Positions 6,981 to 14,459 of a stretch of 64,000 nucleotides of DNA are shown in pieces. The notes below the pieces were generated by a model. The model was not told the DNA's origin. It did no database searches and saw only the letters and a list, made by a program, of their open reading frames with translations. Each line of letters opens with the position of its first letter. The first letter of the stretch is position 1. The position numbers and the translations under genes were made by a program. Source of the DNA: Pseudomonadota bacterium (GTDB lineage Bacteria; Pseudomonadota; Gammaproteobacteria; Burkholderiales; Sulfuriferulaceae); contig JAJZUW010000003.1 of assembly GCA_021845925.1 (NCBI GenBank), positions 186,001-250,000 on the forward strand. The letters run 5' to 3'.

Positions 6981-7004
6981 AAAAAACCCCCGCGATGGCG
7001 GGGG
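6981..7004 (-). terminator. Rho-independent terminator of the sox operon
   Basis: On the minus strand a 7-bp GC stem (CCCCCGC / GCGGGGG, bases 6987-6993 and 6998-7004) with a 4-base loop is followed by six T residues (6986-6981). It lies 50 bases after the soxB stop, with no competing gene between, and closes the sigma/anti-sigma/soxYZB unit. Confidence 0.9.
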
Positions 7005-7054
7005 CGCTGGAGTGCATCATACCTGTTCATGCTGCCTTGTGGGCAACATGGTGG

Positions 7055-8782
7055 TTATTTTGCACAGCTGACAATGCCATGATTGCCTTCGACACCAATC
7101 AGGCTCGGTGTTAGTGGTTTGACGTTGCGAATGGTCTTCTGGTCGCGCAGCCAGCCGGCCACCACGTCCCAGATGGGTTCGCCCTGGGCACTGGCCGACA
7201 TTGGCGCCCAGCCGGCCACCTTGTACTTTTTGCTGGCGTCGATGGGTTTGCCGTGCAGCCGCATGTTGCTGATACGGTTGCCCATGCTGGCATTGGGCGT
7301 GCAGCTGTATTCCAGACCACCGACCCGCACCATGTCGCCGCCCTGTTGCCGGTAAGGATCCGGGTTGAACAGGTTGTCGCACACGTCTTCCATGATTCCC
7401 TTGATCTGGGCGCCGGTCATCATGTTGACTGTGGTGGCCGGATAGGTGATCGCGGTCTGGTCCATCAGATGTTCCATGGTGATGTGTTCGCCAGGCAGCA
7501 GGGTGGTTCCCCAGCGGAATCCTGGCGAAAAACCGATTTCGGCATCCTTGCTGGCCATCAGCGCATCCAGGATGACCTGGTCGAAGCTGCCGTTGAAATT
7601 GCCGCGACGGAACAGGGTATCTTCGGTCAGGGCCAGTTTTTCCTGCAGTTTGTCCAGATAGGGCGCGCGCGACTTGTCGATCAGTTGCGCCATTTCGGCA
7701 TCCGGCTTGAGCAGGTTGGCAAACACCGGCACCAGCTTGTAGCGGTAATCCTGGATCTTGCCATTGCGCACGTCGAAATCCAGCACGCCAACAAATTTGC
7801 CATTCGAACCGGCATTGGTGACCAGGGTCTGGCCGCCACTGTTTTTGACAATGGTCGGCGAGGGTACGCCATCATGGGTATGACCACCCAGAATGGCATC
7901 CATGCCATGCACCCGGCTGGCCAGTTTCAGATCGGTGTCCATGCCGTTGTGCGACAGCAGCACCACCACCTGAGCACCCTTGCCGCGCACTTCGTCGACC
8001 ATTGTTTGCAGGTGGTCTTCCTGAATGCCGAACGTCCAGTCGGGTATAAAGTGGCTCGGATTGGCAATCGGCGTGTAAGGAAAGGCCTGGCCAATGATGG
8101 CCACCTTGACCCCGTTGATGTCTCTCAGGCTGTAAGGCTTGAATACCGGATCGCCGAAATCGTTGGTGACCACATTCTGGGCCAGGAACTCGATGTGGCC
8201 TTTCAGTTCGTTGTTGACCAGCGATTGCACCCGGTCTGCACCCAGCGTGAACTCCCAGTGTGCCGTCATGATATCCACGCCGAGCAGTTTGCAGGCATCA
8301 ACCATGTCCTGTCCCTGGGTCCACAGCGTAGTGGCAGATCCCTGCCAGGTATCGCCGCCATCCAGCAGCAGGCTGCCCGGCCGGCTGGCGCGCAACTGCT
8401 TGATCAGGGTGGCAAGATGGGCAAAGCCGCCAACCTTGCCGTAAACGCGGGCGGCCTGGTTGAAGTCCAGGCAAGTCAATGCATAGGCATCCCGGCTGTG
8501 GGCAGGAATGCCAAAATGCCGGAGTAAATACTCCCCAGTCAGATGTGGTGGCTGGTTGAAGCTGCCACCGACGCCGATGTTGATCGATGGTTCACGGAAC
8601 CAGACCGGCATCAGTTGGGCATGGGTGTCAGTGATGTGCAACAGGGACACGTTGCCGAAGGCCGGGATCTGGTAAAACTGATTGTCTTCGGCGGCGGACA
8701 GCGCGCTTCGGCTGTCGAGCGCGAAGCCGGCGGCCGAGGCGGCAGCCAGCATCTGGAGAAACTCACGGCGACTGAGAGACAT
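7055..8782 (-). CDS. soxB: SoxB, periplasmic sulfate thiohydrolase of the Sox system
   Basis: SoxB hydrolyses the terminal sulfonate from thiosulfate bound to the SoxY cysteine, releasing sulfate; it is a dimanganese enzyme of the 5'-nucleotidase fold. HITDTHAQL (metal site), GGDTWQGSATT and GGHTHDGVP are visible. The 575-residue protein starts with a Tat-type leader (SRREFLQMLAAASAAGFAL), as expected for export after folding. I chose the start at 8782 because GGAGG stands eight bases before it; an upstream start at 8830 would lie inside soxZ. It is the last gene of the sox operon. soxAX and soxCD are not in the window. Confidence 0.96.
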   Translation of the reverse strand: MSLSRREFLQMLAAASAAGFALDSRSALSAAEDNQFYQIPAFGNVSLLHITDTHAQLMPVWFREPSINIGVGGSFNQPPHLTGEYLLRHFGIPAHSRDAYALTCLDFNQAARVYGKVGGFAHLATLIKQLRASRPGSLLLDGGDTWQGSATTLWTQGQDMVDACKLLGVDIMTAHWEFTLGADRVQSLVNNELKGHIEFLAQNVVTNDFGDPVFKPYSLRDINGVKVAIIGQAFPYTPIANPSHFIPDWTFGIQEDHLQTMVDEVRGKGAQVVVLLSHNGMDTDLKLASRVHGMDAILGGHTHDGVPSPTIVKNSGGQTLVTNAGSNGKFVGVLDFDVRNGKIQDYRYKLVPVFANLLKPDAEMAQLIDKSRAPYLDKLQEKLALTEDTLFRRGNFNGSFDQVILDALMASKDAEIGFSPGFRWGTTLLPGEHITMEHLMDQTAITYPATTVNMMTGAQIKGIMEDVCDNLFNPDPYRQQGGDMVRVGGLEYSCTPNASMGNRISNMRLHGKPIDASKKYKVAGWAPMSASAQGEPIWDVVAGWLRDQKTIRNVKPLTPSLIGVEGNHGIVSCAK

Positions 8783-8792
8783 GCGGCCTCCT

Positions 8793-9107
8793 TCAGGAAA
8801 GGGTGGTCTGACCGGCAAATTGTGTGCCAAGATTGTCGACGGCAGACACGCTGATGGTGTCGCCGGCCTTGGCGCCAGTGAGTTTCAGTTCCAGATACGG
8901 ATTTTTGGAAATGCCGATGCCCCATTGCGCCTGCATCACCGGTTTGCCATTGAGCGAGGCAGTGACCAGGTTGATGAAATGGGCGGGAATCAGTTGATGG
9001 GTGGCCGGGTCTTTCATCAGACCGGTATCCATTGGGTGGTGAATCAGAATCTTGACGTCTGCAATGCCATTGTCCAGCTTGGCGCGCATCATGATAGGTT
9101 GTGCCAT
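8793..9107 (-). CDS. soxZ: SoxZ, thiosulfate carrier-complex subunit
   Basis: SoxZ pairs with SoxY to form the periplasmic SoxYZ carrier that holds sulfur intermediates during thiosulfate oxidation. The 104-residue protein has the family pattern: RAKLDNGIADVKILIHHPMDTGL, then IPAHFI and a C-terminal immunoglobulin-like strand region (GDTISVSAVDNLG). It has no signal peptide, as is usual, because it is exported with SoxY. It stands between soxY (38 bases upstream) and soxB (10 bases downstream). Confidence 0.96.
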   Translation of the reverse strand: MAQPIMMRAKLDNGIADVKILIHHPMDTGLMKDPATHQLIPAHFINLVTASLNGKPVMQAQWGIGISKNPYLELKLTGAKAGDTISVSAVDNLGTQFAGQTTLS

Positions 9108-9145: not shown

Positions 9146-9616
9146 TCAGCCGCCGCAGCCGCCAGCGGTGACTTTGACCGATTTGGCGTTGATGTACACC
9201 TTGCCGCCCGCCTTGACAGCCACCTGCACCTGCGAAGTTTTGGCCATTTTGATGCGGGTGGATACAAACGGCATGGCTCCGGGCAGGAACTGGAATTCGG
9301 CGACCAGAGGATTCGGATTGTCCTGCGAGAAAATGGCGATCGAAGTGGTTCCCGGAATGTGGCTGGTGACTTCCACCGGAACCACGGCACCGTTTTCAGC
9401 AATGTCGGGCACTTTCAGTAGAATGTCGTTCGAGTGGGCAGCACCGGCGTAACCTGATTTTGCCATGGCATCAGCCATGTTTTTGGCGGTAAACGCTGCA
9501 CTGTTCCAGTCGGCGGCCAGGGCGCGGCCGATGTTGAGGAATCCGGTGGCAATCATGCCTCCGAGCAGGGCAAGTCTGGAGCCCTGTGTGAGAAATGCAC
9601 GGCGATCTTGTCTCAT
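9146..9616 (-). CDS. soxY: SoxY, sulfur-carrier subunit
   Basis: SoxY carries the thiosulfate-derived sulfur covalently on the Cys of its flexible C-terminal arm. The 156-residue protein ends in AGGCGG, so the carrier Cys is residue 154, as in all true SoxY. The N-terminus has a twin-arginine leader (RRAFLTQGSRLALLGG). It begins only 31 bases after the anti-sigma gene, with an AAGGAAC ribosome site, and no promoter fits in the gap. soxYZB are therefore probably read from the sigma-factor promoter. Confidence 0.96.
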   Translation of the reverse strand: MRQDRRAFLTQGSRLALLGGMIATGFLNIGRALAADWNSAAFTAKNMADAMAKSGYAGAAHSNDILLKVPDIAENGAVVPVEVTSHIPGTTSIAIFSQDNPNPLVAEFQFLPGAMPFVSTRIKMAKTSQVQVAVKAGGKVYINAKSVKVTAGGCGG

Positions 9617-9647: not shown

Positions 9648-10388
9648 TCAGGTTCTCACGTAATCCCAGCCTTCGCGAACACGCCGGCTGATCTCTTCGA
9701 GAGCCGAACCGGCAATTTGCGTGTTGGGAATCAGATGAACGGGGATACCGCGTGCCTCCATCTCCTGCATGGTTTGCTGGCAGGCAAAAAGGAGCAGATT
9801 CGGGAAGCGAGCCTTCATTTGCTCGATGCGGTGTTCGAACGGGGTGGCGCCAGTCATCATCAGGTTAAGTCCACTGCCATTGGCCAGGATTTCCATCTGC
9901 AAGGGGCGGTTGTTCTTCCGGTAGGCTACCAGAAGGTTTTCGGTTTCGTCCAGTGCAGCCTGCAGACGGACCGGATTGGCGCTGCTGACCTGGACAATCA
10001 CCTTGTCTGGTTCCTGAGCCACATTGTCATTGCTGATGGTGCTGATCAGGCGGGTCAGCCTGGGTGATACGCTGCCGGCATGATGCTGCTCGGTGAGTGA
10101 TAACAGCCAGCCGGAAGACGCGCCAATCAGCAGCAGAAAGGATGCGGCCATCAGGGATTGGGTATAACCACGCTTCCAACGGCGTTTGGCAGTTTGGGCC
10201 GGATGCGAGTTGAGGTCGCTGTAGGCGTGTTGCAACAGACGCTTCACGCCCTGGGTTTCGCACAGGCGGTGCCGCAGAGAGGTGTCTTTTTCGATGGCTT
10301 CCAGCAAGTTGTTCCGGTCTGCCAGATCCAGTTCATCATCAATAAACGCATTGAGGTGTTCATCAGACCAAAAAATGGTATGCATCAT
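9648..10388 (-). CDS. Anti-sigma factor with a periplasmic DsrE-like sulfur domain
   Basis: A 246-residue single-pass membrane protein. The acidic N-terminus (SDEHLNAFIDDELD, then helices to about residue 60) resembles the sigma-binding domain of anti-ECF factors. One membrane segment spans about residues 78-98. Residues 128-246 resemble DsrE/TusD-type sulfur-transfer proteins, with the active-site-like Cys203 in LLFACQQTM and a C-terminal GWDYVR. The same C-terminal pattern (VACENTM, GWVYLR) occurs in the periplasmic protein at 12552-13001. The start overlaps the sigma gene stop (ATGA), the usual sigma/anti-sigma coupling, and soxYZB follow. I infer that it senses a sulfur species outside and releases the sigma factor. 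The domain order is visible; the sensing role is inference. Confidence 0.8.
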   Translation of the reverse strand: MMHTIFWSDEHLNAFIDDELDLADRNNLLEAIEKDTSLRHRLCETQGVKRLLQHAYSDLNSHPAQTAKRRWKRGYTQSLMAASFLLLIGASSGWLLSLTEQHHAGSVSPRLTRLISTISNDNVAQEPDKVIVQVSSANPVRLQAALDETENLLVAYRKNNRPLQMEILANGSGLNLMMTGATPFEHRIEQMKARFPNLLLFACQQTMQEMEARGIPVHLIPNTQIAGSALEEISRRVREGWDYVRT

Positions 10389-10945
10389 TTGACCCTCCTC
10401 AGATAGCCATGTTGCTGGCCGGCCGACGTGGCATGTTCCTGTAACAGCACCTGCAGGTTCTGGCGGGCGCGGCTCAGACGGCTCATCACCGTGCCAACCG
10501 GAATGTCGAGAATCCTGGCAACATCCATGTAGGAAAACTCTTCCAGATCCACCAGGGTAACCACTTGACGCTGGCCGACCGGCAGGCTGGCGACGGCTGC
10601 GCGCACCTGGAGCACCAGTTGCGAAAGTGTGTGCTCACCTTCCGGGGTGCGACCGTCGGCGGGCAGGCTGTCAGCCATGTCGTCGATATCTTCCGTGTTG
10701 ACCAGCTTGCGGAAATGATCCCGCCAGCAGTTGTGCAGGATGGAAAACAGCCAGCTGTCGAATTTTTCCGGGTCCTGCAACTGTTTGATGTTCTTCAGAC
10801 CGCGAATCAGGGTTTCCTGGGTCAGGTCTTCTGCCAGCTCCCGATTGCGGCTCCATGAATAAGCCACCCGGAACAGACGCGGACGAATCAGTTCGAACTG
10901 TTCGTCATGTGCGCCAGAGCGGCGAAACAGGGTGATGATATTCAT
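10385..10945 (-). CDS. ECF-family RNA polymerase sigma factor
   Basis: A 186-residue sigma-70 family protein with only regions 2 and 4. Region 2 spans SWSRNRELAEDLTQET to WLFSILHN, and region 4 is LPVGQRQVVTLVDLEEFSYMDVA with the helix-turn-helix IPVGTVMSRLSRARQNL. I chose the ATG at 10945 because GGAGG precedes it and an ECF promoter lies immediately upstream; a start at 11092 would run through that promoter and a terminator. Its stop overlaps the anti-sigma start. The operon continues into soxYZB, so it probably controls thiosulfate oxidation and itself. Confidence 0.92.
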   Translation of the reverse strand: MNIITLFRRSGAHDEQFELIRPRLFRVAYSWSRNRELAEDLTQETLIRGLKNIKQLQDPEKFDSWLFSILHNCWRDHFRKLVNTEDIDDMADSLPADGRTPEGEHTLSQLVLQVRAAVASLPVGQRQVVTLVDLEEFSYMDVARILDIPVGTVMSRLSRARQNLQVLLQEHATSAGQQHGYLRRVK

Positions 10946-10977: not shown

Positions 10978-11007
10978 TTAGACGAGCCGGGATTGCAAAA
11001 TATTCCA
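10978..11007 (-). promoter_or_regulatory. ECF-type promoter of the sigma/anti-sigma/sox operon
   Basis: Reading on the minus strand, TGGAATA (11007-11001) is followed by 16 bases and CGTCTAA (10984-10978), about 33 bases before the sigma ATG. The same TGGAATA-N16-CGTC arrangement occurs before the dsrE-like gene (13060-13034). GGAA-type -35 and CGTC-type -10 elements are the hallmark of ECF promoters, so autoregulation is likely. Confidence 0.75.
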
Positions 11008-11036
11008 CTGAATAAATTGTCAGGAAAGGCCGGAAG

Positions 11037-11069
11037 AAAACGCCCCGGAAACAGACTGTTTCCGGGGCG
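11037..11069 (-). terminator. Terminator of the porin gene
   Basis: A perfect 14-bp inverted repeat (CGCCCCGGAAACAG at 11041-11054 and its complement at 11056-11069) lies 24 bases after the porin stop. On the minus strand it is followed by TTTTC. It separates the dsrE-like/porin unit from the sigma operon promoter. Confidence 0.88.
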
Positions 11070-11092
11070 TACCATGACAGTTCGACCAGCAA

Positions 11093-12469
11093 TCAGAAAG
11101 CGATGATAGCGTAAAGATCAAACTGGTTGCCAATGGCATTGCCGGTGCTCTCGGCCAGATTCAACCCTGCCTGACCATTGGCCTTGAGAATGGCCAGCGG
11201 ATTGGGCACGGTGAGCGAACGGTCAATGTAATCCACCGCAATCCGGGTCCAGCCGGTGATGTGGTATTGCAACGAAATGGCGCGGTTTTCGAAAATCCGT
11301 TCCTGTACCGCGATGTTGGGCAACCGGTCGTACCAGTCATAACGCAACACCGCTTCGATGTTTTTGGTCAGGAACCAGCCGACTGAGGCATCGTATCCAA
11401 ATGCGCGGTTTTGCTCACCGGGGTAGAAGGTGGCGTCATACTGCGCTGGCGTGACACCGGGAATCTGGTCGAATGCTGCGGGAGCCATGATGTTACCGGT
11501 ACCGGAAATGTATTCGAACTTGGCGCTCAGAGCATTCGGACGCATGTAACCCTTGCGGGCGGTCATACCGAAGCCGTCGCGGACCATCTGGTTGGACATG
11601 CCATTCATTTGCGGATTGGCTTCCTGGTACCAGACATAACCGGTGATGTCGTCACGGAAAATCCGGTCGGAATGCGGGCTCAGCAAATAAGATGCCTGAA
11701 TGCGGCCCGCATAGATCTGACCGTTGTCCGTGCCGGTTTCAAACTGGCGACCATATTCACCCAGCATCACGCCGTAGGCGACCTCGGTTTTCGGTGCGAC
11801 CATGAACCAGTTTTCCAGCTGCACGCCAGGGTAACGAAAACCGTTGTTGCCGGACAGGTAGTTGGATGGCACCTGGTAACCACCAGGCGTGCCCGTGCTG
11901 GTGTAGTGCATGTTGGCCTGATAGAACACCGGTTGCATCAGCTGGGCGGTGGCGCTGGTGAACAGGTCGAGGAAGTTGAATGTCATGAAGCCTTGCATGG
12001 CGTCTTCCGGGCCTGGCGCACGGATCACGCCAACTTCAAACCGGTTGCCCAGCGGCAGCATGTTGCTGAAGGTCAGGTTCGCGTCAATGATGCGTGGCGC
12101 GTAGTTGCCAAACGAGTAGGCATACGCGTTGTCGCCCGCTTCCACGCCGACATAATAAGAGATGTCCGGATTGATCAGGCCGCGGACCAGGAACCTCGCG
12201 CGCTGCAAGTAAGCCGAAGATGTGGAACCAGTACCGGTGGAATCGGTCTCACCGACATAATCCGGGCGGGGAATCAGGTGATTGGACGCCGGCGATGCGC
12301 TGATGTTGGTAAACACCGGTTGAATAAACCCGATGAAACGACCGGAACCCCAGGATGGAAATGCAACGGTTTGCAGGTCAAACCAGTTGTTGGCTTGGGC
12401 GGACGGTATGGCGCAGCACAGCAGGCTGGCGTATACCGTCCGCTTGAGCAGGACTTGGTATTTTTTCAT
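11093..12469 (-). CDS. Outer-membrane porin, phosphate-selective porin O/P-like
   Basis: A 458-residue protein with a signal peptide (cleavage after AIPSAQA, about residue 26), many alternating beta strands rich in aromatic residues, and a C-terminal Phe (LYAIIAF), the usual signal for BAM-mediated insertion. RARFLVRGLINPDISYYVGVE and the overall pattern resemble the OprO/OprP-like porins of sulfur- and iron-oxidising bacteria. No separate promoter of the ECF type is seen in the 82-base gap upstream, so it is probably read with the dsrE-like gene. The transported solute is not deducible; a sulfur oxyanion is a guess from context. Confidence 0.8.
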   Translation of the reverse strand: MKKYQVLLKRTVYASLLCCAIPSAQANNWFDLQTVAFPSWGSGRFIGFIQPVFTNISASPASNHLIPRPDYVGETDSTGTGSTSSAYLQRARFLVRGLINPDISYYVGVEAGDNAYAYSFGNYAPRIIDANLTFSNMLPLGNRFEVGVIRAPGPEDAMQGFMTFNFLDLFTSATAQLMQPVFYQANMHYTSTGTPGGYQVPSNYLSGNNGFRYPGVQLENWFMVAPKTEVAYGVMLGEYGRQFETGTDNGQIYAGRIQASYLLSPHSDRIFRDDITGYVWYQEANPQMNGMSNQMVRDGFGMTARKGYMRPNALSAKFEYISGTGNIMAPAAFDQIPGVTPAQYDATFYPGEQNRAFGYDASVGWFLTKNIEAVLRYDWYDRLPNIAVQERIFENRAISLQYHITGWTRIAVDYIDRSLTVPNPLAILKANGQAGLNLAESTGNAIGNQFDLYAIIAF

Positions 12470-12551
12470 GTTGCTCCTCTGATATTTTTATGCGGGTGGT
12501 CCCGCTTGTGTGGTCAAGTTGATATGACCTATGCAAAATCGAAAGCTTGGT

Positions 12552-13001
12552 TCATGGGCGAAGATAAACCCAGCCGGCTTCCTCCTTTTCGATCAGTTCC
12601 ACTGCTCCGGACGGCACATAGCCAATGTTAGGCAGCATGTCAGCATTGGTCAGGTGCTTGGCTTTCATGGTGTTTTCGCAGGCGACAATCTTGATGCCGC
12701 TGTCGAGCGCCTGGTTGATGTCATCGCCCAGCACCGATTCGAAACGCAACTGGTCAATTCCAGGACCAAGTGCCACCACTTCAATGTCGACATTCTGCTT
12801 GCCAAAGGTTTGCTGAACCTTTTTGGCGTTGGCCAGCAGCATGCGCCAGCGGTCAGCTGCGCTGTCAGAGATCTGGAACACGACATGATGATGCTTGACC
12901 GACGTGGTCTGCACGGCTGCATCATCGGCTTGAGCGGGCGGGACAGCCATGCCGGCTGTGAGCGCTACGGCGATTAGAGCGCAGCGCAACATGTTTTTCA
13001 T
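12552..13001 (-). CDS. Periplasmic DsrE/DsrF-like protein
   Basis: A 149-residue protein with a Sec signal peptide (cleaved about residue 25, PPAQA) and a DsrE-like Rossmann domain: HVVFQISDSAADRW, VDIEVVALGPG, and IKIVACENTM with the likely sulfur-binding Cys108. Cytoplasmic DsrE/TusD proteins pass sulfane sulfur from Cys to Cys; the periplasmic family has no settled function. Its domain matches the outer domain of the nearby anti-sigma factor, including the C-terminal GW-Y-R. An ECF-type promoter identical in spacing to that of the sigma operon precedes it. It may feed or compete with the sensor, which is inference. Confidence 0.85.
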   Translation of the reverse strand: MKNMLRCALIAVALTAGMAVPPAQADDAAVQTTSVKHHHVVFQISDSAADRWRMLLANAKKVQQTFGKQNVDIEVVALGPGIDQLRFESVLGDDINQALDSGIKIVACENTMKAKHLTNADMLPNIGYVPSGAVELIEKEEAGWVYLRP

Positions 13002-13033
13002 AGGGACTCCTTTTGAGATGGTGACATCTTGCT

Positions 13034-13060
13034 GACGTGGGGCAAAATAAATTTATTCCA
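13034..13060 (-). promoter_or_regulatory. ECF-type promoter of the dsrE-like/porin unit
   Basis: On the minus strand TGGAATA (13060-13054), 16 bases, then CGTC (13037-13034), about 33 bases before the ATG at 13001. Box sequence, spacing and distance match the promoter before the sigma gene, which puts this gene in the same regulon. Confidence 0.72.
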
Positions 13061-14146: not shown

Positions 14147-14229
14147 GCGTGCGTCCGCTGACCCGGTTTGCCAGGCAGGTGCTTCTGTCACTTCGTCGCG
14201 CAAGCAGCAGCCACTGGCTGCGGGGTGAC

Positions 14230-14437
14230 ATCGCGGGAGAATGCGTGATTATCACGCTGCCGAAGGCGCAATCCACCCATAACCGCTCAGGCTCCCGAAC
14301 CGCGATTCGCTGCAGGCTGCGTTGCCTGCCGGACAACTCTGGAGAGTGATGGCAACATCCACCGAAGGGGCACGCGGCGTTCCGCCGTAATCTCTCAGGT
14401 AAGGAAACCAGCTGGTTTCCGCAAGGACAGGGGGGTG
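14230..14437 (+). promoter_or_regulatory. Tandem glycine riboswitch
   Basis: Two aptamers stand in series before gcvT. Aptamer 1 (about 14232-14337) has GCGGGAGA, GCTGCCGAAGGCGCAA, CGCTCAGGCTCCCG and CCGGACAAC. Aptamer 2 (about 14338-14431) has TCTGGAGAG, CCACCGAAGGGGCA, ATCTCTCAGGTAA and AAGGACAGGGG. These are the conserved glycine-aptamer blocks in the right order. In bacteria this RNA usually switches on the glycine cleavage genes when glycine is abundant, and the genes downstream are exactly those. Confidence 0.93.
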
Positions 14438-14459
14438 ACACGAAACCAAATTGGTTTCG
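14403..14459 (+). promoter_or_regulatory. Possible expression platform of the glycine riboswitch
   Basis: A hairpin inside aptamer 2 (GGAAACCAGCTGGTTTCC, 14403-14420) is followed by a second palindrome (CGAAACCAAATTGGTTTCG, 14441-14459). The arms share GAAACCA/TGGTTTC, so the arms could pair within or between hairpins. No T-run follows, so simple intrinsic termination is not supported. The alternate pairing is inference. Confidence 0.45.

Follow-up and report, generated by a model that had tools for sequence, protein, structure and literature searches.

Does a matched pair of promoter boxes mark out a sulfur regulon in this stretch of DNA, and if it does, what signal would such a regulon answer to? 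The sensing of external sulfur by the regulators of sulfur oxidizers has been described as poorly understood (PMC11582611). In the window, by which we mean the whole 64-kb stretch analyzed here, the original prediction placed TGGAATA-N16-CGTC upstream of an ECF sigma factor gene and of a dsrE-like gene, and proposed that the sigma factor controls both its own gene and the dsrE-like and porin genes.

Two matched boxes head two gene units

A scan of the window for TGGAATA-N15..17-CGTC returned exactly two matches, both with N16 spacing, against 0.04 matches expected by chance; none of 100 shuffles contained two matches. Thus the matched pair upstream of the two genes was confirmed, as was the statement that the window holds no third copy. 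The first box, given originally as 11007-10978, is a real site, but it ends at 10981 rather than 10978. The distance of about 33 bases from box to ATG was close, the exact gaps from CGTC being 35 bases for the sigma gene (ATG at 10945) and 32 bases for the dsrE-like gene (ATG at 13001). The features of the locus are as follows.

13034..13060, minus strand: predicted ECF26-type promoter of the dsrE-porin unit (TGGAATA-N16-CGTC; conservation)
12552..13001, minus strand: dsrE-like gene (149 aa; signal peptide by eye; DsrE domain)
11093..12469, minus strand: porin-like gene, second in the dsrE unit (458 aa)
11040..11070, minus strand: intrinsic-terminator-like hairpin closing the dsrE-porin unit (14 pairs, T-rich tail)
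10981..11007, minus strand: predicted ECF26-type promoter of the sigma unit (TGGAATA-N16-CGTC; conservation)
10385..10945, minus strand: ECF sigma factor gene (186 aa; regions 2 and 4)
9648..10388, minus strand: predicted anti-sigma factor gene (246 aa; TM-like helix, DsrE domain)
9146..9616, minus strand: soxY (TIGR04488 over cut-off)
8793..9107, minus strand: soxZ (TIGR04490 over cut-off)
7055..8782, minus strand: soxB (TIGR04486 over cut-off)
6986..7005, minus strand: terminator-like hairpin closing the sigma-sox unit (8 pairs, T-rich tail)

The sequence gives good support to an arrangement in two co-oriented predicted units, dsrE-porin and sigma-antisigma-soxY-soxZ-soxB, each headed by one box. 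The anti-sigma gene overlaps the sigma gene by 4 bp, and gaps of 31, 38, and 10 bases precede soxY, soxZ, and soxB, which lie on the same strand. Gene spacing and the closing hairpins suggest that the genes of each unit are co-transcribed. As the box of the sigma gene heads a unit running through soxY-soxZ-soxB, the sox genes would be part of the regulon here. The regulon first proposed lacked soxYZB; these genes, the DsrE domain of the anti-sigma factor, and the known ECF26 promoter type are added by the present analysis.

The porin-like protein has no Pfam match of its own, and a related porin (L054) matches Porin_O_P. Between dsrE and the porin gene (12468-12560, minus strand) lies a stable small hairpin, GCGGGACCACCCGC, followed by AT-rich sequence (z -3.4), which might reduce expression of the porin relative to dsrE. 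Elsewhere in the window (14224-14440, plus strand), ordinary tandem glycine riboswitch aptamers were found upstream of glycine-cleavage genes.

The promoter is conserved at orthologous sigma loci

We assembled 91 distinct loci from beta- and gammaproteobacteria, each holding orthologues of both the sigma and the anti-sigma gene, made up of relatives of the window's genome and named contigs, including Gallionella, Sulfuricella, Sulfurimicrobium, Sulfuritalea, Thiobacillus, Thiohalobacter, Thiogranum, Halothiobacillus, and others. Upstream of the sigma gene, the exact motif was present at 55 loci and a copy with one mismatch at 20 more (75/91 in total, with equal spacing), compared with 0.2% of shuffled upstream regions at one mismatch or fewer. 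The N16 model left 12 of the 91 loci with at least four mismatches, some of them contig ends and some having N15 spacing. Over the loci, the consensus was KGGAATAWW-N14-CGTC, mostly with TTA next, and the spacers were near-random (31% mean identity) while the boxes stayed fixed.

About 120 of the 122 exact KGGAATA-N16-CGTC sites at these loci precede genes for sigma (71, plus three for which the first start codon had been taken in the wrong frame), dsrE (38), dsbC-like (3), soxY (2), porin (2), or the YeeE-type Sulf_transp (1) proteins, and two sites could be given to no gene. The neighbors of the sigma gene were dsrE at 65 loci, a porin at 41, and soxB, soxY, or soxZ at 21-22, all of them minimum counts, as some of the contigs are short. 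Because only about 22 of the 91 loci include sox genes, dsrE/porin is taken as the core target. At soxYZB in G004 and G009, the leading gene is DsrE-like and has identical boxes, at N15 spacing, in front of it. In G004 (L040:4885-8741), two further DsrE-like genes flank the sox cluster, one of them being that which heads soxYZB behind the N15 motif.

The window's own genome (2.34 Mb) has two more exact N16 copies beyond the window (C5:91625 and C6:28676) and one N15 copy, and the reversed pattern, used as a control, matches once. Genomes of the genus usually carried 2-4 exact sites, several-fold more than the roughly 0.7 matches per genome of the reversed pattern. Many exact matches in the genus fall inside coding frames, and these were left aside. 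The motif is therefore not frequent at random positions, the outcome named at the start as a refutation. Unlinked dsrE genes in the genus likewise carry the motif. Together with the 38 sites upstream of dsrE and the conservation at 75 of 91 sigma genes, this conservation strongly supports the predicted autoregulation and control of dsrE/porin. Judged from sequence, we consider it very likely that the promoters and the regulon are as proposed.

The C5 and C6 copies lie 135 and 344 bases upstream of RND-transporter paralogues. Exact copies linked to RND genes occur in three genomes, G000 (the window's own; C5:91625-91651, L001, and C6:28676-28702, L002), G004, and G009, with L067 and L071 as the further loci. 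RND transporters were rejected as regulon members: the C5 site is missing in the closest relative (G005), and the genome count is near chance. The exact motif at L079 (G011:C1:1521885-1521911) lies 30 bases upstream of a gene that may belong to the regulon as well; it encodes a HAD-like protein in which a Tat-type signal was recognized by eye.

The sigma factor and the ECF26 promoter type

The 186-residue sigma protein matches Sigma70_r2 and r4_2 over the Pfam cut-offs and TIGR02937 over its cut-off, which fits an ECF (group IV) factor. Only one other ECF-like match was found in its genome, 34% identical to the window's sigma. NF009164 is the best NCBIfam model for this protein, for three orthologues, and for the ECF26 factor RpoE6 of pSymA, all below the cut-off. 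Both window boxes have the GGAAT (-35) and CGTC (-10) elements of ECF26 promoters (PMC6527743), and the mapped rpoE4 promoter of Sinorhizobium meliloti is TGGAATA-N16-CGTC (PMC6180224), identical to the window promoters in boxes and spacing. We infer that this sigma factor reads these promoters.

The anti-sigma factor ends in a periplasmic DsrE domain

The first 60 residues of the anti-sigma factor are helical and resemble zf-HC2 weakly in 8 of 19 orthologues. This N-terminal domain is followed by a TM-like helix (residues ~74-97 in the predicted model) and by a periplasmic DsrE domain (residues ~125-245), which retrieves stand-alone DsrE proteins in searches. Profile comparison of the C-terminal domain with the dsrE family gave 99.5% probability, and hmmsearch matched the domain to PDB 1L1S (E 6.6e-15). 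Consistently, Foldseek placed the domain model (pLDDT ~96) with 1L1S (TM 0.89 on the target), 2PD2, and 2HY5.

Cys203 of the anti-sigma factor is invariant in 43 sequences and aligns with Cys108 of the dsrE-like protein, which is invariant among 13 relatives and aligns in turn with a cysteine in 1L1S and 2PD2. The alignment of the domains, including these residues, indicates that the putative sensor domain of the anti-sigma factor and the DsrE product of the second promoter are distant paralogues. By position, Cys203 and Cys108 would be the sulfur-carrying cysteines. The 43 sequences all keep another cysteine as well, Cys43 of the N-terminal domain, perhaps as a zinc-site remnant or a second sensing residue. 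A literature search, which covered part of the literature, found no description of a DsrE-domain anti-sigma factor. We think it probable that the DsrE domain is the input sensor of the circuit.

The anti-sigma factor co-occurs with SoxB

Among 300 genomes of the order, 37 encode the full-length anti-sigma factor, and all 37 encode SoxB, compared with 104 of the 263 genomes lacking it (Fisher 4e-14 over ten families, a statistic that ignores relatedness). In the window's own genome (99.94% complete), neither SoxA nor SoxX passes the family cut-off, and the copy before soxXA, suggested originally as a supporting check, was for this reason not seen. A weak SoxA match in this genome was discarded, since on inspection its long frame resembles a cytochrome with several domains. 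Sister species that have the whole sox cluster showed no exact motif next to SoxA.

In seven genomes (G000, G002, G004, G005, G006, G009, and G015), no SoxA reaches the family cut-off, whereas 11 sister species have SoxA. Most of the seven carry soxYZB beside the sigma gene, and the window's own genome has this operon without a recognizable SoxXA.

A proposed positive-feedback switch and its alternatives

The best overall explanation, to which we give a probability of about 0.8, is a sulfur-substrate switch in which sigma drives positive feedback through both boxes. In this model, sigma (10945-10385) would read both boxes and transcribe dsrE-porin (13034 to ~11040) and sigma-antisigma-soxYZB (10981 to ~6986), while the anti-sigma factor would hold sigma at the inner membrane. 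The sulfur substrate would be sensed by the periplasmic DsrE domain of the anti-sigma factor; the likeliest means are transfer of a sulfane-sulfur or thiosulfonate group to Cys203, or docking of a loaded DsrE-like protein. Sigma, once freed, would amplify its own operon, the periplasmic DsrE protein, the porin, and the Sox proteins, closing the loop. The chemical signal and the step that releases sigma, whether conformational change or proteolysis, are both proposals. Sulfur loading of Cys203 is a plausible trigger, at somewhat under even odds. We hold with similar reserve the fuller version, in which a TM anti-sigma factor has adopted a sulfur-carrier fold as its periplasmic sensor, Cys203 may be loaded directly or by DsrE/SoxYZ, and the intermediates would set the release.

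Two other readings of the signal, each unlikely to about the same degree, were weighed against this model. The circuit could answer sulfite in the ECF26 manner, with the DsrE domain as a mere periplasmic platform for regulated proteolysis, given that RpoE4, whose promoter is identical, responds like RpoE1 to compounds that generate sulfite, thiosulfate and taurine among them (PMC3511301; PMC6180224). However, no gene for a sulfite-oxidizing enzyme stands behind the motif at the loci examined, where the targets encode DsrE-like, porin, dsbC-like, Sox, and Sulf_transp proteins, and an invariant Cys203 would be superfluous in a mere platform.

RseB binds RseA. By analogy, the stand-alone DsrE protein could bind the DsrE domain of the anti-sigma factor as a negative-feedback component or co-sensor, the signal being envelope or redox stress. 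DsrE is indeed the most constant neighbor and target (65 of 91 loci; 38 sites), it is distantly paralogous to the putative sensor domain, and the targets sometimes include a dsbC-like gene; the strict co-occurrence with SoxB and the sox genes under the same promoter nevertheless favor a sulfur signal. That the boxes are random likenesses and other promoters drive the genes is extremely improbable: although about 0.7 exact matches per genome arise at random by the reversed control, this is exceeded in the genus, only 0.04 matches were expected in the window, and spacing and gene position are fixed over the 91 loci (75 with the motif) while the spacers have diverged.

The sulfur-substrate switch would thus be a widely conserved circuit joining an ECF26-type promoter, a DsrE-domain anti-sigma factor, dsrE, a porin, and sox genes. 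It offers concrete points for testing, namely Cys203 and the two promoters, and its motif lets the regulon be read across dozens of sulfur-oxidizer genomes. If sulfur loading is indeed the trigger, the anti-sigma factor would represent a class of envelope sulfane-sulfur sensor common to many beta- and gammaproteobacterial sulfur oxidizers.

Comparison with known systems

Both the promoter type and ECF control of sulfur oxidation, in ECF26 and in Arcobacter (PMC3445524), are already known; what appears new here is a membrane anti-sigma factor whose C-terminal part is a periplasmic DsrE domain carrying an invariant cysteine. The ECF26 systems, S. meliloti RpoE1/RpoE4 and Starkeya novella SigE, likewise combine GGAAT/CGTC boxes with a sulfur-compound regulon, and autoregulation, as proposed here, is found in S. 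meliloti. They also have a downstream anti-sigma factor with an N-terminal domain, a TM helix, and a periplasmic part, the layout predicted here as well (PMC6180224; PMC6527743; PMC3511301). The ECF26 anti-sigma factor has an RsiW-like C-terminal part, whereas here a DsrE domain takes its place, without a match to the anti-sigma factor beside rpoE6. The ECF26 target is a sulfite dehydrogenase, in contrast to dsrE, the porin, and soxYZB in the window, and by its sequence the sigma factor is a candidate member of ECF26.

The DsrE/DsrF-like proteins (PDB 1L1S and 2PD2; DsrEFH) share their fold and conserved family cysteine with the domain described here, which differs in being periplasmic and, in the anti-sigma factor, fused to a TM-like helix and a domain resembling that of anti-sigma factors. 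In Arcobacter butzleri, mutants showed that the ECF factors sigma2 and sigma7 act on sox genes (PMC3445524); ECF control of sox genes is what the two systems would share. Those sox genes lie outside the sigma operon, and soxYZB lies inside it here. In Hyphomicrobium denitrificans, the repressors SoxR and sHdrR with SoxT1B exert sulfur-responsive control of sox genes, for which sulfur loading of the regulator is assumed (PMC11582611). The proposed circuit would have this responsiveness in common, but where SoxR/sHdrR is a cytoplasmic repressor fed by a transporter, the sensor proposed here is periplasmic and would need no sulfur import.
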